Source of the DNA: Sorangium cellulosum
GTDB lineage: Bacteria > Myxococcota_A > Polyangia > Polyangiales > Polyangiaceae
Assembly (NCBI GenBank): GCA_020720045.1
Contig: DYPH01000013.1
Span: forward strand, 1 to 64,000
Length of the DNA stretch: 64,000 nt
Direction of reading: 5' to 3'
The position numbers were made by a program, and so were the translations under genes. Under the pieces are notes generated by a model. That model was not told the origin of the DNA and did no database searches. It worked only from the letters and a program-made list of their open reading frames with translations. This document shows, piece by piece, positions 48,951 through 58,333 of the stretch. The number at the start of each line of letters is the position of its first letter. Within the stretch, counting starts at the first letter, position 1.

Positions 48951-49988
48951 GTGCATATTGCGTCATCCTCCTCGCCGGTGCCTGTCACGATTTTTGGCGC
49001 ATCCGGCTATGCCGGGCTGGAACTTGCGACTCTTCTCGCGAGCCATCCGGCCGTCGCCGTGATCGGCCACGCGAGCGATAATTTTGCCGGAAAATCGGTC
49101 GGAAATTTTGCACGTGGCCCTATCGGCGCCGCGGTCTTTGAGCGCGTAGAGGCGGTCTTGGAGGCGCCCGCGAAGGTCGCGTTCCTCGCCACGCCGAACG
49201 AAGCCTCGTATGCGCTCGCGCGCAAATTGGTCGATCGCGGGGTGCGTGTGATCGACCTTTCCGGCGCCCATCGCCTCCGCGACGCCACCGCTCAGACGCA
49301 CTTCTACGGCCTCGACCTCCCCTCCTATCCGGAGGGGGCGCTCGCCTACTCACTTCCGGAAGTGGTTCGTCTTGATCGCGACGCGTTTTCGGCGCTGTCG
49401 GTCATCGCCAACCCGGGCTGCTACGCGACTGCCATCGCCCTCGCGCTCGCGCCGGTGGTGGCCGCCGGTCTTGTCGTCGGCGCGCCAATTGTCGATGCCG
49501 CGTCCGGCGTTTCGGGTGCCGGCAGGAAGGCGACGGAAGCCTACTCCTTCACGGAGCTTGCCAGCGACTTTCGAAGCTACCGCGCGTTACGCCATCAGCA
49601 TGTTCCGGAAGTTCAGCAATTGATCGGTCTCGAACAGCCGATTCACTTCGTGCCGCACTTGCTCCCGGTCCCGCGCGGGATTCTGGCGACCGCGCACGTC
49701 ACGCTCGCCACGCCCCTTACGAGTGCCGCAATCAGTTCCTTGTATACTGCACGTTATGTGGGTGAACCATTTGTGAAGTATGTCGAGGACCCCGAAGAGG
49801 TACGGCTCTCCCGGGTCGTCGGGACCAACCGCTGCCGCTTGAGTGCCGTTCTCGACGAGACCGGGACTCACCTTACGATTTTCTCCGCGATCGATAACCT
49901 CCTCAAAGGTGCATCGGGACAGGCGGTTCAAAACTTGAATCTTCTTCTCGGTCTCCCGGAAACGACCGGGCTTGAGGCGCTTTCATGA
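48951..49988 (+). CDS. argC: N-acetyl-gamma-glutamyl-phosphate reductase
   Basis: A 345-aa NADPH enzyme, the third step of arginine synthesis. The Rossmann motif IFGASGYAGLE begins near residue 14, and the catalytic Cys157 is in NPGCYATA. The HFVPHLLPVPRGILATAHV segment is typical. It starts with GTG at 48951; a GTG at 48978 would give the usual short N-terminus. I see no Shine-Dalgarno for either. It begins a seven-gene operon and overlaps the fused argJB gene by 4 bp. Confidence 0.95.
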   Translation: MHIASSSSPVPVTIFGASGYAGLELATLLASHPAVAVIGHASDNFAGKSVGNFARGPIGAAVFERVEAVLEAPAKVAFLATPNEASYALARKLVDRGVRVIDLSGAHRLRDATAQTHFYGLDLPSYPEGALAYSLPEVVRLDRDAFSALSVIANPGCYATAIALALAPVVAAGLVVGAPIVDAASGVSGAGRKATEAYSFTELASDFRSYRALRHQHVPEVQQLIGLEQPIHFVPHLLPVPRGILATAHVTLATPLTSAAISSLYTARYVGEPFVKYVEDPEEVRLSRVVGTNRCRLSAVLDETGTHLTIFSAIDNLLKGASGQAVQNLNLLLGLPETTGLEALS

Positions 49989-52123
49989 TCGCCGTACCCC
50001 GCGGTTTTTCCTTCTCCGGCGTCTCGGCCGGCATCAAGCCGGTCCGACGAGACATTGGCATTGTCGTCTCCGATCGACCGGCGCTCGCGATCGGGCGATT
50101 TACCGTCAACCGTGCCCGCGCCGCCTGCCTGAGCGACGCAGCCGCGCGCCTGCCCCGCGAGGATTTCCGTGCGCTCATCGTCAACTCGGGGAACGCCAAC
50201 GCGCTCACCGGCCCGGAGGGGGGGCGTGCCGTTGCCGACGTGCACCGCGCCGTCGAGACGACGTTTGAGCTCCCGCGGGATTCCGTGTATACTTCATCTA
50301 CTGGCGTCATCGGCGTGAAATTCCCGGTGGGGAAGGTGCTTGCCGCGCTGCCGAAGCTCGCCGACGAGCTTGAAGGGGCCCCCCACGCGCTCGCCGAGGC
50401 GATGCTCACCACCGACACGCGCACCAAGATGGGGAGCCGCGTCGTCCGATGCGGTGGCGTCAGCGGGACGGTCTTCGTCGTCGCCAAGGGCTCGGGGATG
50501 GTCGCCCCCGAGTTGGCGACCACCATCGTTGTCGTTGCGACCGACCTCGCCGTCACGCGGGCGGCCCTAGACAGCGCGCTGGACGGCGCCCTCGCCGACA
50601 GCTTGTCGATGCTCGTCGTCGACGGCGAAATGAGCACAAACGATGCGCTTTGGGCGATCGCAAACGGCGCCGCCGGCAATGCCCCCATCCTTGTGGAGAG
50701 TGCAGAGTACACACTGTTCGCCGCAGCGGTGCGTGAGCTCCTCATCGAAATGGCGAAGGATGTCGCTGCGGATGGGGAAGGGGCGACCAAGCGCCTCGAA
50801 ACGCGAGTGGGGGGCGCCCCGACGATCGGACTCGCCCGCGACCTTGCCCGCGCGGTGACCGCGTCTCCCCTCGTAAAGGCGTCGCTCTTCGGCGCCGATC
50901 CGAACTGGGGGCGCATTCTCGCTGCGATCGGCGCCCGCGCCGGCACCGCCGTCCAAACGGACCGGGCTGCCGACGCCATCGATCCGTCCCAGGCGAGCGT
51001 CACCCTCGCCGGCGTCCTCGTCTACGACCGCGCCCCGGTCGAGTTTGACCGCCGAACCCTCCGCGCAAAGCTCCGCGAACCGGAAGTGACCGTCGATGTC
51101 GATCTTCGTGCGGGCGCCTTCGAAGCGACCGCCTGGGGCTGCGACCTTTCCTACGACTACGTCAAAATCAATGCAGACTATACTTCTGCAATTGTCGCTG
51201 ACGAAGAGGGGGGCGTCCGGCGCGACGATCGTTTGTCGAACTACAGCCCCAAGTTCAAGGTCTCCCTCCTCGTCCAGGCCCTTCGGTACATTTCCAACTT
51301 CCGCGGCCAGCGCTGCGTCGTGAAGTTCGGCGGTGCCTCGTTGGCGCGGCAGGTTAATGTGGAGTCTTTTTGCGAAGATATCTTGCTTCTTCGAAGCGTC
51401 GGTCTCTGCCCGATCGTCGTCCACGGGGCTGGCAAAGAGATCGCTAAGGCCTTCGACCGTATCGGCGATCAAGGGAAATACATCGACGATATCCGCATCA
51501 ATGATGAGGCCGATCTGACCCTTGTAGAAATGGTTCTTTCCGGCAAGATCAATGGGGATTTGGTCACCTCCTTGAACCGCGCCGGAGGCAATGCTGTCGG
51601 TGTGTCTGGCAAAGATGCGGGGCTGCTCCGCGCGAAAAAGGCGGTGCGCGACGATGGTCAAGACCTCGGCCGCTTCGGGGAACTCACCGCCGTGAACAAA
51701 GGCTATTTGGAGCTCCTCCTCGCCCAGGGGTATGTGCCGGTGGTTTCGCCGATGGCGCTCGGCGAGGACGGCGAGAGCTACAGCCTCTCCGGGGACGACG
51801 TTGCCGCCGGAATCGCCGCCGCCCTCGGGGCGCAGAAACTGATTCTCCTCGCGGATGCCCCCGGAATCGTTGAAAATGGCGAACTCGTCTCCGAGCTTTC
51901 GCCCCAGGAACTTCAACTCAAGATGGACCGCGGCGTCATCTCGGGAGGCATGGCGGCCAAGGGGCGGGCGGCACTCAAAGCGCTCGCGGCCGGGGTCCCA
52001 AGCATCCACGTGCTCGACGGGCGCACCCCCCACGGCGTCATCGCCGAACTCTTCACCGACAACGGCGTAGGCACCTGGATCCAGGAAAATGGCCGAGAGC
52101 GGCGCGTGGAGGGGCAGTCATGA
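49985..52123 (+). CDS. argJB: Fused ornithine acetyltransferase (ArgJ) - N-acetylglutamate kinase (ArgB)
   Basis: A single 712-aa frame. Residues 1-400 are ArgJ: GFSFSGVSAGIK, VNSGNANALTG, STGVIGVKFPVG, TTDTRTKMG, the autocleavage site KGSGMVAPELA-T (between Ala178 and Thr179), GEGATKRLE, DPNWGR and the typical end GCDLSYDYVKINADYT. A 25-residue linker leads to ArgB (about 425-712): VVKFGGASL with Lys447, VVHGAGKEI, GGNAVGVSGKD, SLSGDDVAAG, ADAPGIV and GMAAKGRAAL. If ArgJ self-cleaves as usual, its beta chain would stay joined to the kinase. ArgJ recycles the acetyl group from acetylornithine to glutamate, and ArgB phosphorylates acetylglutamate. Confidence 0.93.
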   Translation: MIAVPRGFSFSGVSAGIKPVRRDIGIVVSDRPALAIGRFTVNRARAACLSDAAARLPREDFRALIVNSGNANALTGPEGGRAVADVHRAVETTFELPRDSVYTSSTGVIGVKFPVGKVLAALPKLADELEGAPHALAEAMLTTDTRTKMGSRVVRCGGVSGTVFVVAKGSGMVAPELATTIVVVATDLAVTRAALDSALDGALADSLSMLVVDGEMSTNDALWAIANGAAGNAPILVESAEYTLFAAAVRELLIEMAKDVAADGEGATKRLETRVGGAPTIGLARDLARAVTASPLVKASLFGADPNWGRILAAIGARAGTAVQTDRAADAIDPSQASVTLAGVLVYDRAPVEFDRRTLRAKLREPEVTVDVDLRAGAFEATAWGCDLSYDYVKINADYTSAIVADEEGGVRRDDRLSNYSPKFKVSLLVQALRYISNFRGQRCVVKFGGASLARQVNVESFCEDILLLRSVGLCPIVVHGAGKEIAKAFDRIGDQGKYIDDIRINDEADLTLVEMVLSGKINGDLVTSLNRAGGNAVGVSGKDAGLLRAKKAVRDDGQDLGRFGELTAVNKGYLELLLAQGYVPVVSPMALGEDGESYSLSGDDVAAGIAAALGAQKLILLADAPGIVENGELVSELSPQELQLKMDRGVISGGMAAKGRAALKALAAGVPSIHVLDGRTPHGVIAELFTDNGVGTWIQENGRERRVEGQS

Positions 52124-52584
52124 GCGACGACGTCCGCCAGCGACGGGCCCTCGTCCGCCGCCTCCTTGCCGATGGTGGGGTAGGCACACAGGAGGAGCTC
52201 CGCGTCGCCCTCGCGGCCGCCGGCATCCACGTGACGCAGGCGACGCTTTCGCGGGATCTTGCAAGCATCGGCGCCCGCCGCGTCCACAACCCGGCGGGGG
52301 GCACGAGCTACGAGCTCCCCGACGCCCAGGCGACCCCCTCGGAGGACGAACTCGCCGTCGCCCGAAACCTGATCGCTGGGCTCACGCCGAGCCTCGCCCT
52401 GGTCGTCGTTCACACCGCCCCCGGTGCCGCTTCCGCCATCGCAGCGCTCCTCGATCGCTCGCGTCTCGCGGAGGTCGCGGGGACGATCGCCGGCGATGAC
52501 ACCATCTTCGTCGCCCCCCGGCGAAACGCCTCCGCCGACGCCCTCCACCAGCGTCTCGCGTCGGTTTGGTCGCTCCCGCTGTAA
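52120..52584 (+). CDS. argR: Arginine repressor
   Basis: A 154-aa regulator. The N-terminal winged helix has VGTQEELRVALAAAGIHVTQATLSRDLASIGARRV, and the C-terminal arginine-sensing hexamer domain has VVVHTAPGAASAIAALLD and GTIAGDDTIFV. It represses arginine genes when arginine binds. It overlaps the argJB stop by 4 bp, so it sits inside the operon it probably controls. Confidence 0.94.
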   Translation: MSDDVRQRRALVRRLLADGGVGTQEELRVALAAAGIHVTQATLSRDLASIGARRVHNPAGGTSYELPDAQATPSEDELAVARNLIAGLTPSLALVVVHTAPGAASAIAALLDRSRLAEVAGTIAGDDTIFVAPRRNASADALHQRLASVWSLPL

Positions 52585-52655: not shown

Positions 52656-54101
52656 ATGGCTCTCGCAAAGACGGCCGCTTCCGGCGGCGCGACGATTCTC
52701 CCCGAGGTCCTCGCATTTGGCAGTTCGCTCGCCGACGACCTCCATCTTTTTCACGAAGACGTTGTCGGAAGTCTCGCCCACGTCGTGATGCTTGGACGCA
52801 CCGGGATCGTCCCGAGCGACACTGCTGTAACCTTGGGGCGCGCGTTGGTCGCCCTTGCCGAGGAGCACCGCGCTGGCACGCTGGCTCTGCCCGACGAAGA
52901 AGATGTCCACATGGCCATCGAGACGGTGCTCTTTGAGCGCCTTGGCGTCGCCTCCAAGATGCTGCACTCGGCGCGCTCCCGGAACGACCAGGTCGCGACG
53001 ATGGTCACCCTCCACGTCCGCGACCGCGCGCGGACCCTTGGCCTCCTGGCGACCGAGCTCGCGACGCTGCTCCTCGACCGTGCTGAGCAAGAAAAAAACG
53101 TCGTTCTGCCGAGTTATACCCATCGCCAGCGCGCCCAGCCAATCGCGCTCGGGTTCCTTTTTGGCGCATGGGCTTCGATGCTCCTGCGCGATGCTCAGGG
53201 GTACCTTGCCCTCGCGAACAGCCTGCGATCGCCCCTCGGCGCTGGCGCGATCGCCGGTAGCACGCTCCCCGTCGACCGCCCCCTGACGGCACGCCTCCTC
53301 GGCTTCCCGGGGCCGACCTGGAACGCCCTCGACACCGTCGGCGACCGCGACTTCGTCCTCGACTACCTCTACTCCGCAGCGAAATTCGGCATCCACGCGA
53401 GCCGAATCGCGACCGATTTCGTCGATTTTTCAACCAGTGAATTCCGCTTCTGCCTCCTCGACGGCGCCATCGCCTCCGGATCGTCGATGATGCCGCAGAA
53501 GAAGAACCCGGACGTCTTCGAGCTGATTCGCGGCAAAGCGGGCCCCGCCCTCGGAAACCTCGTTTCGCTCTTCACGACGATGAAGGGGCTGCCTTCAGGC
53601 TACAATCGAGATCAGCAAGAAGATCGGACTGTTCTCATCGAGGCTGGCCGCCGCGCCGAGAGCGTCTTCCGCATGCTGCTCCTCGCGATTCCGAAGGTCG
53701 TTTTCGACGCTGACCGCTGTGCCGCTGCCCTCGCAGAAGACTACACAACGGCGACCGACCTCGCCGAGGCGCTCGTGAAAAGCGGGATTCCCTTTCGCGA
53801 AGCTTACGGCATTGTAGGCCGCGTCGTCCTGCGAATGAAGGACGCAGGCATCCCCCTCGCGAAGGTTGAAGCCTCGTTGGTCGCCGACATCGATCCGCGA
53901 TTGACCAGCGACGTCCTTGGCGCCTGCAGCATCGACGGCTTCGCCGATAGGAAGCAGACGTTCGGCTCGACGGGGACCGCCCCGCTCGCCGCTCAGAGGG
54001 CCGACCTCCGTCAGGAAATTTCCAAGGTCGCAGGCCCCCTGGCTGCCATCCCGACTCTCGACCAGCTCCTCTCCACCCTCGCCGCCGAGCTTCCGCAATG
54101 A
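52656..54101 (+). CDS. argH: Argininosuccinate lyase
   Basis: A 481-aa fumarase-superfamily enzyme that splits argininosuccinate into arginine and fumarate. Signatures: EDVHMAIETVL, HSARSRNDQVATMV near residue 108, YTHRQRAQPI near 155 with the catalytic His, and the GSSMMPQKKNPDVFE loop near 278. It lies 71 bp after argR and overlaps argF by 4 bp. Confidence 0.95.
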   Translation: MALAKTAASGGATILPEVLAFGSSLADDLHLFHEDVVGSLAHVVMLGRTGIVPSDTAVTLGRALVALAEEHRAGTLALPDEEDVHMAIETVLFERLGVASKMLHSARSRNDQVATMVTLHVRDRARTLGLLATELATLLLDRAEQEKNVVLPSYTHRQRAQPIALGFLFGAWASMLLRDAQGYLALANSLRSPLGAGAIAGSTLPVDRPLTARLLGFPGPTWNALDTVGDRDFVLDYLYSAAKFGIHASRIATDFVDFSTSEFRFCLLDGAIASGSSMMPQKKNPDVFELIRGKAGPALGNLVSLFTTMKGLPSGYNRDQQEDRTVLIEAGRRAESVFRMLLLAIPKVVFDADRCAAALAEDYTTATDLAEALVKSGIPFREAYGIVGRVVLRMKDAGIPLAKVEASLVADIDPRLTSDVLGACSIDGFADRKQTFGSTGTAPLAAQRADLRQEISKVAGPLAAIPTLDQLLSTLAAELPQ

Positions 54102-55000
54102 TTCGTCATTTCCTCCGTCTTGCCGACCTGACTGCCACCGAGCATCAAACGCTCCGCACCCGCGCCAAGCTTCTCAAGAAGGAACGTGCGGCCGGTCTGC
54201 GCCACACGACGCTCGCCGGGAAGACGGTCGCTCTCGTGTTTGAAAAGTCGTCGACGCGGACGCGTGCCTCCTTCGAAGCGGGGATCAAGCAGCTGGGCGG
54301 CGACGTCCTCGTCCTCGACGCGCAAGGATCTCAGCTCGGCCGCGGGGAGCCCATCGAGGACACCGCCCGCGTCCTTTCAAGCTACGTCGACGCCATCATG
54401 CTGCGGACCTTCGGTGACGAACGCCTCGAAGCCTTTGCAAAATTCAGTCGCGTCCCGGTCATCAACGGCCTCTCCGACGGCGCCCATCCCGTGCAGCTCC
54501 TCGCCGACCTCCAGACCGTCGACGAGAACTTCGGCACCATCGACGTCCCGATGGCCTTCGTCGGCGACGGGTCGTCCAACATGGCCCGCTCCTTCGTCGA
54601 GGCTGCACGACTCTTCGGCTTCCTGCTGACGATCGCGTGTCCGGAAGGCTACGAGCCGCCCGCCGACGAGATCGCCGCTGCTGGCGGCAAGGTCCGGATC
54701 GTGCGCGACCCCCGCGAAGCCGTAAAGGGCGTTTCCGTTGTGAATACAGACGTATGGACGAGCATGGGCCAGGAGGCGGAGAGCAAGAAGCGCCTTGCGG
54801 CGTTTGCCGGGTTCACCGTCGACGGCTCGATGATGGCCCTCGCAGCGCCGGACGCGATCGTCCTTCACTGCCTGCCTGCCCACCGCGGCGAAGAAATCAG
54901 CGCCGAGGTTCTTGAGGGGGCGCAATCGCGGGTCTGGCAGCAGGCCGAAAACCGGATGCATGCCCAGAAGGCGCTCCTCGAGATCCTCCTCCCGACCTGA
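54098..55000 (+). CDS. argF: Ornithine carbamoyltransferase
   Basis: A 300-aa enzyme that makes citrulline from ornithine and carbamoyl phosphate. It has the carbamoyl-phosphate motif EKSSTRTRASFE near residue 49, DAIMLRTFGDERLEAFAKFSRVPVINGLSDGAHPVQLLAD, DVWTSMGQE, and the ornithine-loop HCLPAHRGEEIS near 257. The gene is just before carB, so the donor and the consumer are encoded together. Confidence 0.95.
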   Translation: MIRHFLRLADLTATEHQTLRTRAKLLKKERAAGLRHTTLAGKTVALVFEKSSTRTRASFEAGIKQLGGDVLVLDAQGSQLGRGEPIEDTARVLSSYVDAIMLRTFGDERLEAFAKFSRVPVINGLSDGAHPVQLLADLQTVDENFGTIDVPMAFVGDGSSNMARSFVEAARLFGFLLTIACPEGYEPPADEIAAAGGKVRIVRDPREAVKGVSVVNTDVWTSMGQEAESKKRLAAFAGFTVDGSMMALAAPDAIVLHCLPAHRGEEISAEVLEGAQSRVWQQAENRMHAQKALLEILLPT

Positions 55001-55042: not shown

Positions 55043-58000
55043 ATGCCGCGTGACGCAAATCTAAAGAAAATTCTTGTCCTTGGCTCTGGTCCGATCGTCA
55101 TCGGACAGGCTGCTGAGTTCGACTATTCGGGCACTCAGGCAGTGAAGGCTCTCCGGGAAGAGGGAATTGAGGTCGTCCTCTGGAACAGCAATCCAGCGAC
55201 GATCATGACCGACCCGACGTTCGCCGACCGCACCTACATCGAGCCGATGACGCCCGAGGTCGGTGAAGCGATTCTCGCCCGCGAGAAGCCGGACGCGATC
55301 CTCCCGACGATGGGCGGGCAGACGGCATTGAATCTTGCAAAAGCCCTCGCGGAGAGCGGCGCCTTGGAGCGCCACGGTGTTCGCCTTTTGGGGGCCAACT
55401 TGGAGGCGATCAATAAGGCGGAAGACCGCCTTCTCTTCAAGGCGGCAATGGCGAAGATCGGTATTCCGACGCCGAAGAGTGGCTTCGCAACAAACATCGA
55501 TGAAGCACTCGGTTTTTGCGAGGAGATCGGCTTCCCGGCGATCATTCGCCCGTCTTTCACCCTCGGGGGGACTGGCGGCGGCATCGCCTATAACCGGGAG
55601 GAATACGAAGAGATTTGCCGTGGTGGCCTCGATGCGAGCCCCACGTCGACCATCCTCGTCGAGCAGAGCGTGCTCGGGTGGAAAGAGTACGAACTCGAGG
55701 TCGTTCGGGACCGGAATGACAACGCAATTATCGTTTGTTCGATCGAGAATCTCGACCCGATGGGCGTTCACACCGGGGATTCGATCACCGTCGCCCCGGC
55801 CATGACGCTCACCGATCGCGAGTACCAGGTCCTCCGCGACTACTCGATTCGAATCCTTCGCGAGATCGGCGTCGATACCGGCGGATCGAACGTCCAATTC
55901 GGGGTGAACCCGGCCGACGGCGGTATCGTCGTGATCGAAATGAACCCGCGTGTTTCGCGCTCCTCGGCGCTCGCATCGAAGGCGACTGGCTATCCGATTG
56001 CGAAGATCGCGACGAAGCTCGCCATCGGCTACACGCTCGACGAACTCCCGAATGACATCACGCAGACGACGAAGGCGGCCTTCGAACCGGCCATCGACTA
56101 CGTCGTTACAAAAATTCCTCGTTTTGCCTTTGAAAAATTTCCCCATGCCGACCGCACGCTCACGACGATGATGCGAAGCGTGGGGGAGGTCATGGCGATC
56201 GGCCGTACCTTCCGTGAGAGCTTCCTGAAGGCGCTCCGCTCGATGGACCAGGGGGCTCTCCCCCTCGCGGCTCCTCCGCTCCCGGAGGACAAACAGGAGC
56301 GAAAGCGGGCCCTTGCCGACCTCATTCGCGTTCCGCGTCCCGATCGCGTAGCCGCCCTCTTCCAGGGCTTTCGCGAGGGGCTAACCGTGGAAGAGATCCA
56401 CGACCTTTCGAAGATCGATCCCTTCTTCCTCCACGAGATTCAGGCGATCGTGACGGAAGAGAATGCGATCTCTTCTGCCGGCTCTTTGTCGAAATTTGCC
56501 GATGCTCCGCTCGCAGCAGCGAAGCGAAATGGCTTCTCGGACGCCGACTTGGCTCGTCTGCTCGGGGCGAGCGAGGGGGATGTCCGGCGGAGGCGCCTCG
56601 CGGCCGGGATCGTGCCGACGATGAAGCGCGTCGACACGTGCGCCGGGGAATTTCCCGCATTTACCCCCTATTTGTACGGCACCTACGAGTCCGACGATGA
56701 GGCCCCGCCGACCGATCGCGAGAAGGTCATCGTCCTCGGCTCTGGTCCGATCCGCATCGGGCAGGGGATCGAGTTTGATTATTGCTGCGTGCATGCATCG
56801 TTCGCGCTCGCCGAAGCGGGCTTCGAGACGATCATGCTCAATTGCAATCCGGAGACGGTTTCGACCGATTACGACACCTCCGATCGCCTCTACTTCGAGC
56901 CGGTGACGCTCGAAGACGTACTGACGATCTGTCGGCGCGAGAAGCCGCTCGGGGTCATCGTTCAATTCGGTGGCCAGACGCCCCTCAAACTCGCAAAGGC
57001 GTTGGAGGCGGAGGGCGTTCCGATCCTCGGTACACCGCCCGACGCCATCGATCGCGCCGAAGACCGCGAGCGCTTCTCTGCCGTCGTCGAGAAGCTTGGT
57101 CTCCTTCAACCCCAGAACGGGCTCGCGCGCACCGAGGACGAAGCGCAGACGATCGCTGCGCGAATCGGTTTTCCGGTCGTCGTTCGCCCGAGCTACGTGC
57201 TCGGCGGGCGCGCAATGGAAGTGGTTGGAAGTGCAAAAGAACTTGCCCGCTACATGCGCGAAGCGGTCCACGTCTCGCCGGACCACCCGATCCTCATTGA
57301 TCGCTTCCTCGATCACGCCATCGAGGTCGACGTCGATGCCGTCGTCGATCGCACCGGTGCCGTGCAGGTTGCCGGCATTCTCGAGCACATCGAGGAGGCG
57401 GGCATTCACTCGGGGGATGCCGCCTGCGTGCTTCCGCCCCATTCGCTCGGGAGTGACGTCATTGAACGGATGAAGGATCAGGTGCTCGCCCTGGCCCGTG
57501 AACTCGGTGTCGTCGGATTGATCAACGTCCAGTTCGCGATTCAGGGGAAGAGCGTCTACCTCCTTGAGGTCAATCCTCGTGCTTCGCGAACGGTCCCCTT
57601 TGTGGCAAAGGCGACTGGCTTTCCGCTTGCCAAGGTGGCCGCGTTGGCGATGGCCGGAAAGACCTTTGAAGAGCTCGGTGCAATCGCCATCCTGCCCGAA
57701 GCTCCGCCCCATTTTGCGGTCAAGGAGAGCGTCTTCCCGTTCGCACGCTTCGACAAGACCGACGTCGTGCTTGGGCCGGAGATGCGCTCGACCGGCGAGG
57801 TGATGGGCATCGCGCGCGACGCGGAAACCGCCTTTTTGAAAGCACAAATCGGCGCCGGAGCACGCTTCCCGACGGCGGGAAATGTCCTTCTTTCCGTCGC
57901 TGACGACGACAAGCCGGGCGTTGTGGAGGTCGCGCGAAAGCTCGCCGTCCTCGGCTACAGCCTCTTCGGCACCGGCGGCACCGCCAGCTACCTCCGCGGG

Positions 58001-58333
58001 AAAGGCCTCGCCGTCGCTTCGGTCCCGAAGGCCGATGAGGGGCGCCCCCACGTCGTCGACCAGCTCCGTTCCGGTCGCTACGCCTTCGTCGTCAACACGC
58101 GGAGCCGCAGTGGTGCTTCCGACGGAACGGGGAGCTACGGCCTCCGTCGGGAGGCACTCGTACGTGGCGTCCCGTTTTTTACGACGGTGGAAGCAGCACG
58201 TATGTTGGCTGGAGGATTGACGAAAGCAGCAGCGGTCCGCGCAGGCGGCGAGCCGCTCGGCTTCTCGATTTCCCCTCTCCAAGAACTTCTCGGTATCTCC
58301 GCATCCATCGCGACGAAGGCAGGTGAGGCATGA
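55043..58333 (+). CDS. carB: Carbamoyl-phosphate synthase large subunit
   Basis: A 1096-aa enzyme with two homologous ATP-grasp halves. Each half opens with [22 protein letters not shown]-like sequence (residues about 9-30, and [20 protein letters not shown] near 562), and carries the ATP-grasp loop and NPRVSRSS or [10 protein letters not shown] metal-binding motifs. The C-terminal allosteric domain starts near 955 ([14 protein letters not shown]). It makes carbamoyl phosphate from ammonia, bicarbonate and two ATP. It precedes carA, the reverse of the common carAB order, and overlaps it by 4 bp. Confidence 0.96.

Follow-up and report, generated by a model that had tools for sequence, protein, structure and literature searches.

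The stretch of Sorangium cellulosum DNA analysed here (64,000 nucleotides of contig DYPH01000013.1, in the following called the window) carries an argC-argJB-argR-argH-argF-carB operon, in which argJ and argB, coding for ornithine/glutamate N-acetyltransferase and N-acetylglutamate kinase (NAGK), are fused in a single open frame of 712 codons plus stop that overlaps its neighbours by 4 bases on both flanks (Table 1). The initial annotation had spotted this frame from the letters alone, and our data bear it out: Pfam ArgJ (PF01960) spans residues 10-401 (E 5.9e-113) and AA_kinase (PF00696) residues 443-678 (E 4.6e-38), the ArgJ part passes the NCBIfam models NF003802 (372.7 bits, cut-off 351) and TIGR00120 (327, cut-off 298), the kinase part passes the argB model TIGR00761 (195 bits, cut-off 151.3) and a second species of the same genus, separately assembled, has the same 712-residue frame at 98% identity.

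All residues diagnostic of ArgJ/ornithine acetyltransferases are present in the ArgJ part: the Ala-Thr cleavage pair, the oxyanion TG, the Lys of KGxGM, the Glu of DGEGA and the Asn of INAD. The oxyanion-hole pair T106-G107 (STGVIG) is invariant in all aligned ArgJ, fused and separate alike, and the nucleophilic Thr of the cleavage pair A178/T179 (KGSGMVAPELA/TT) is invariant across the fused proteins. The site is as intact as first noted, and the product then proposed, an alpha chain plus a beta chain that continues into the amino-acid-kinase (AAK) domain, is plausible. ArgJ ends with KINADYTS (residue 401) and the N-terminal helix of NAGK begins at about residue 422, which leaves a linker of some 20 residues (402-421), slightly shorter than the 25 originally counted. 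Among sequences with known structures in the PDB, the top matches are ornithine acetyltransferase 1vz6 for the first half and the arginine-inhibitable hexameric NAGKs 2buf and 2bty for the second. Foldseek pairs the ArgJ part best with the S. clavuligerus ornithine acetyltransferase (OAT) 1vz8 and the kinase part with arginine-bound T. maritima NAGK 2bty (template-modelling scores by target of 0.89 and 0.92). The AlphaFold model itself has a mean pLDDT (predicted local distance difference test) of 86.6 and a pTM (predicted template-modelling score) of 0.67, with a low-confidence linker, so that it does not define how the domains are placed relative to each other. Two other identities were rejected, namely a classical N-acetylglutamate synthase (NAGS, ArgA), given that Pfam finds no GNAT domain and TIGR01890 scores 130 bits against a cut-off of 202.85, and a LysW-aminoadipate kinase type, which at 119.7 bits falls far under its cut-off of 223.

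The fusion is not unique to the window genome. Among 59 relatives searched first, 14 further fusions came to light (43-56% identity, each in one frame and over nearly the whole length of both domains), and at the order level 40 of 184 genomes gave a match at E 1e-80 or better, all of them verified as single frames except that of genome G127. In the latter (L138:340-460), an unverified sequence from a metagenome-assembled genome (MAG), an in-frame TGA in the linker would split ArgJ from a degenerate kinase piece. The degenerate fused kinase of another genome, G108 (L134, L226), reaches a contig end, with the rest apparently on another contig, and was counted as incomplete. A phylum-wide sample added fused families, some from the same class and some from other myxococcotal classes; two matches at this level (G288, G331) turned out to be unfused on inspection. 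Among the 80 named GTDB loci listed, three are fused (Archangium violaceum Cb vi76 and two Myxococcota MAGs) while in the other 77, high-scoring and fusion-like in the tblastn table, argJ and argB lie side by side as two genes, and outside the Myxococcota we found only such adjacent, separate genes and no fusion among the matches listed. Nor did we find a paper on an ArgJ-ArgB fusion in a search of open-access papers. Based on its distribution, the fusion is an old architecture of the Myxococcota. That it might be an artefact of sequencing or assembly joining two genes, as the initial annotation had cautioned for the junction, has no support that we could find and is hardly credible: independent genomes at 43-98% identity share both frame and linker length, which excludes such an error for practical purposes. 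The other caveat raised at that time, separate genes in close relatives, does not apply as intended either: many relatives do have argJ and argB as separate genes, but those in fused genomes are extra paralogues that belong to other clades.

To compare the kinase halves, all fused proteins were aligned with separate NAGKs and with the NAGKs of T. maritima and E. coli, the E. coli reference aligning consistently. Eight catalytic or substrate residues were scored (K8, G11, G44, G45, R66, N158, D162 and K217 in E. coli numbering), with roles taken from previous work (PMC3236213, PMC3329491, PMC2851564), alongside the arginine-site residues, i.e. the N-helix Tyr, the beta-sheet Lys and E-L-F-T-x-x-G-x-G-T (PMC4490483, PMC3236213). 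All eight catalytic residues are found in 25 of the 58 fused proteins; 18 full-length ones retain three or fewer, some of them none, and the rest are intermediate. The arginine site, on the other hand, is complete in every full-length fused protein bar one Y-to-F and one K-to-R exchange. With 79 positions that are at least 95% invariant among 42 intact NAGKs as a control set, retention in the 18 pseudokinases amounts to 99% for arginine-site, 17% for catalytic and 51% for other positions (permutation p about 1e-5 and 1e-3, which are indicative since the sequences are related). Deletions mostly hit the acetylglutamate-binding lobe (residues ~493-552), not the linker, N-helix or arginine loop, and family f16 has lost the stretch equivalent to ~493-552 with those three elements at full length. 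Spacing is conserved too: of the 55 fused proteins in which we measured the distance from the Ile of INAD to the N-helix Tyr, 46 have exactly 40 residues and six more have 39. The Archangium violaceum fusion, from a genome with two other NAGK-family genes, combines K8R, N158D, K217R and loss of R66 with a complete arginine site. Together, this pattern suggests that arginine binding, rather than kinase chemistry, is what has been conserved in the myxococcotal fused domain.

In our trees (quick maximum-likelihood, with SH-aLRT support only), the fused proteins group together by their ArgJ halves (support 96), apart from separate ArgJ paralogues that include the second ArgJ of the window genome, and all reasonably intact fused kinases form a single clade (99), to which the separate hexameric-type NAGKs present in many of these genomes do not belong. 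Because both trees put fused proteins in one clade, one fusion event is the simplest account. An unfused ArgJ, that of G331, is nested among the fused ones on the ArgJ tree, possibly reflecting secondary loss of the sensor domain. This protein (L223, L254) stops at the normal ArgJ terminus, and what its genome encodes instead is a PRK04531-family protein that combines a NAGK-type kinase with an acetyltransferase region. The 'dead' kinase state takes five changes on the ArgJ tree, at least three of which are forced by well-supported branches. Since the relatives are mostly assemblies, some incomplete, any 'only copy found' is bounded by completeness. With this in mind, genus g14 (six genomes with 97-100% completeness) yielded no NAGK and no ArgJ besides the intact fusion, which hence very probably does both jobs there. 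In family f16 (eight genomes), the only ArgJ found is an ArgJ-pseudokinase and the only NAGK found comes without an arginine site. E. coli, which has an arginine-insensitive NAGK and an arginine-sensing acetyltransferase, divides labour in the same way, but f16 employs ArgJ in place of the GNAT enzyme. Every searched genome with a strongly decayed fused kinase has another NAGK, whose catalytic residues are complete wherever the sequence was read.

As for the window copy, it keeps K8, D162 and K217, the catalytic residues proper, yet among G44, G64, R66 and N158 of the acetylglutamate/phosphate site only R66 is left, the changes being G44A, G64D and N158S, with N160S in addition. So the 'full ArgB' of the initial annotation describes length and fold correctly, the active site being the exception. 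In E. coli NAGK, the affinity for acetylglutamate hinges on N158 and R66 (PMC2851564). Overall, the copy deviates at 12 of the 79 near-invariant positions (the four named site changes and eight more), whereas the 25 fused copies that retain the full set of eight residues do so at 0-5, a contrast somewhat flattered by the fact that those copies helped define the positions. The arginine site (Y435, K618, E688-T697) is complete. Kinase activity is probably weak or absent, because the acetylglutamate/phosphate site is altered. Between the two species of the window genus (dS about 0.3-0.4), the ratio of nonsynonymous to synonymous substitution rates (dN/dS) comes to 0.041 in the ArgJ half and to 0.007 in the kinase half; the kinase domain is therefore under strong purifying selection and does not decay as a pseudogene. 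A dead f16 pair gives 0.185 for the ArgJ half and 0.034 for the kinase half; in several other pairs the kinase-half value is similar to or above that of ArgJ. Family searches, on which our gene inventory of the window genome is based, add to the fused ArgJ an unfused one (C194) and bring up a separate NAGK (C202) in which every catalytic residue is present but the arginine site is missing; no classical ArgA scores above cut-off. It is on C202 that phosphorylation in this organism probably depends. The earlier idea that the fusion ties acetylglutamate production to its phosphorylation consequently fits some relatives (g14) but not the window copy, with its altered acetylglutamate site and with C202 and C194 in the same genome; such coupling was probably the ancestral role, not the general one.

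To our minds, the window protein is rather probably an ArgJ acetyltransferase with a C-terminal, NAGK-derived arginine-sensor domain, convergent with classical NAGS. Its kinase domain would descend from an arginine-inhibitable NAGK of the hexameric type, and a single event, in early Myxococcota or before them, would have fused argJ and argB genes that were neighbours, the earliest form probably being a true ArgJ-NAGK enzyme. Many lineages then lost residues of the kinase site and retained those of the arginine-binding site, leaving a domain that now would mainly sense arginine for ArgJ, and the window copy would sit on the path from kinase to sensor. Mechanistically, cutting of the Ala-Thr bond would yield the alpha chain and the beta-AAK chain, arginine would bind to the latter and N-helix movement could pass through the linker to ArgJ. 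Classical NAGS, which has a conserved arginine site in common with NAGK, offers a direct parallel: its N-helix and linker shift when arginine binds, and inhibition depends on linker length such that a longer linker abolishes it (PMC4490483). Whether one may go further and say that Myxococcota invented a second, independent arginine-regulated acetyltransferase (ArgJ plus pseudokinase sensor), with feedback moved from the kinase to ArgJ in convergence with classical NAGS, is a question on which we are evenly divided.

Alternatively, the window protein may be a working bifunctional ArgJ-NAGK that tolerates G44A, G64D, N158S and N160S, serves co-regulation or channelling of acetylglutamate and has its kinase inhibited by arginine. 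We consider this possible but doubtful. Retention of K8, R66, D162 and K217, a TIGR00761 score above cut-off and a kinase-half dN/dS of 0.007 all speak for it, as does the intact fusion being the sole NAGK found in g14 and in genome G031; however, the 12 changed positions (0-5 in intact fused copies) concentrate in the acetylglutamate/phosphate site, and C202 supplies a NAGK with all catalytic residues. A kinase half with an altered substrate, another acylated amino acid, and no sensor role would make sense of G64, N158 and N160 changes that hit residues recognising the acyl group and carboxylate, and a succinylglutamate kinase variant of ArgB is known (PMC7311316). Yet the gene lies in a standard arginine operon with argC, argH and argF, and elsewhere in the clade decay removes catalytic lysines outright, which makes this option very unlikely. 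Only slightly less improbable is an AAK domain that acts solely as a scaffold, multimerising or stabilising ArgJ with the arginine loop kept for structure. It is true that the N-helix interlaces hexameric NAGKs and that yeast NAGK stabilises NAGS, the inactive acetyltransferase domain of NAGK itself being stabilising (PMC3329491). Against a mere scaffold, the fused proteins retain not just the glycines but also the Tyr, Lys and Glu that contact the ligand, whereas many positions of equal conservation have changed, and same-fold NAGKs without arginine control, such as that of E. coli in our alignment, lack these arginine-site residues.

Several points count against the arginine sensor that we favour. 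With K8, R66, D162 and K217 in place, the window copy could keep some kinase activity; the arginine loop could owe part of its conservation to structure, as it also contributes to the fold and to contacts within the oligomer; and the second, unfused ArgJ of the same genome would escape control by the sensor. Moreover, the association between decay and a second NAGK, from counts compiled by hand and approximate for genera, has a p value of 0.0017 by species, which are not independent, and of 0.48 by genus (2 genera versus 0), and is thus consistent with our proposal rather than proof of it.

How does the fusion compare with known systems? Like classical NAGS ArgA (N. gonorrhoeae 2R8V/3D2P), it couples an arginine-pathway acetyltransferase with an AAK domain that resembles NAGK, and the NAGS arginine site consists of an N-helix Tyr, a Lys, a Glu and E-(L/I)-(F/M)-(T/S)-X-X-G-X-G-T (PMC4490483). 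Unlike NAGS, it uses ArgJ, a self-cleaving enzyme of unrelated fold, has the reversed domain order and has lost its kinase residues separately several times. With bifunctional NAGS/K (Xanthomonas, Maricaulis) and the yeast NAGK/NAGS metabolon, which share arginine control between steps (PMC3236213, PMC3329491), it has in common that the first two steps of arginine synthesis reside in one protein or complex; NAGS/K systems, however, use a GNAT/DUF619 domain and tetramers instead of ArgJ, and the kinase of the fusion is often dead. Hexameric NAGKs of T. maritima (2BTY) and P. aeruginosa (2BUF), the closest structures to the kinase half (target scores 0.92 and 0.91, ~39% identity), also have a complete arginine site but lack the fusion to ArgJ and the altered acetylglutamate site. 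ArgJ/OAT enzymes (S. clavuligerus 1VZ8, M. tuberculosis 3IT4) match in fold, catalytic and self-cleavage residues, although the fusion runs beyond their usual C-terminal end into linker and AAK domain. Moritella ArgH(A), finally, is likewise a fusion within the arginine pathway, one through which the operon gains glutamate acetylation (PMC1382215), yet with other partners and without an AAK sensor.

Should the sensor model be true, active, partial, dead and deleted-lobe stages of the change from kinase to sensor are all still visible, and this natural gradation, with the intact bifunctional enzyme at one end and what looks like a pure sensor at the other, may tell how an enzyme domain turns regulatory. 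A comparable transition seems to lie behind classical and vertebrate NAGS, but so far back in time that its course can no longer be followed. Under the model, arginine would moreover act on ArgJ, a control point new to arginine synthesis, in hosts that include culturable ones, e.g. Archangium violaceum. For annotation, it implies that many fused proteins which pass as 'acetylglutamate kinase' in family searches should lack that activity.

Table 1. Features of the argJ-argB fusion and its operon in the window (E. coli numbering where indicated).
Feature	Position	Strand	Basis or remark
argJ-argB fusion gene, 712 aa	49985..52123	+	open frame; uninterrupted homologous frames in relatives
ArgJ (ornithine/glutamate N-acetyltransferase) part, residues 1-401	49985..51187	+	PF01960, NF003802, Foldseek 1vz8
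ArgJ oxyanion-hole pair T106-G107 (STGVIG)	50300..50305	+	invariant in aligned ArgJ
ArgJ self-cleavage site A178/T179, nucleophile Thr	50516..50521	+	sequence; Thr invariant in fused proteins
Linker, residues 402-421, conserved RDDRLxNYSP	51188..51247	+	near-constant length in fused proteins
NAGK N-terminal helix, residues 422-439, arginine-site Tyr435	51248..51301	+	T. maritima NAGK alignment; AlphaFold helix
Amino-acid-kinase (NAGK) domain, residues 442-701	51308..52087	+	PF00696, TIGR00761, Foldseek 2bty
Catalytic Lys, E. coli K8 = K447, retained here, lost in many relatives	51323..51325	+	alignment
G44 equivalent, Ala482 (phosphate-binding glycine)	51428..51430	+	alignment
G64 equivalent, Asp502 (acetylglutamate site)	51488..51490	+	alignment
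N158 and N160 equivalents, Ser600 and Ser602 (acetylglutamate site)	51782..51790	+	alignment
Arginine-site Lys618	51836..51838	+	kept in full-length fused proteins bar one K to R
Arginine-site motif E688-L-F-T-D-N-G-V-G-T697	52046..52075	+	key positions invariant in full-length fused proteins
argC	48951..49988	+	overlaps argJB start by 4 bases; only argC above curated cut-off in genome
argR	52120..52584	+	overlaps argJB stop by 4 bases; family models
argH	52656..54101	+	family models
argF	54098..55000	+	family model
carB	55043..58333	+	

At most loci in the relatives compared, the fusion gene adjoins argC, as it does here. Within the operon argR directly follows argJB, and in several distant families, too, it lies beside argC-argJB. 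Neither of the two additional genes of the window genome belongs to the arg operon: the unfused argJ (C194) lies near a gene for a PknB-type kinase and the separate NAGK gene (C202) near one for an M20 peptidase.

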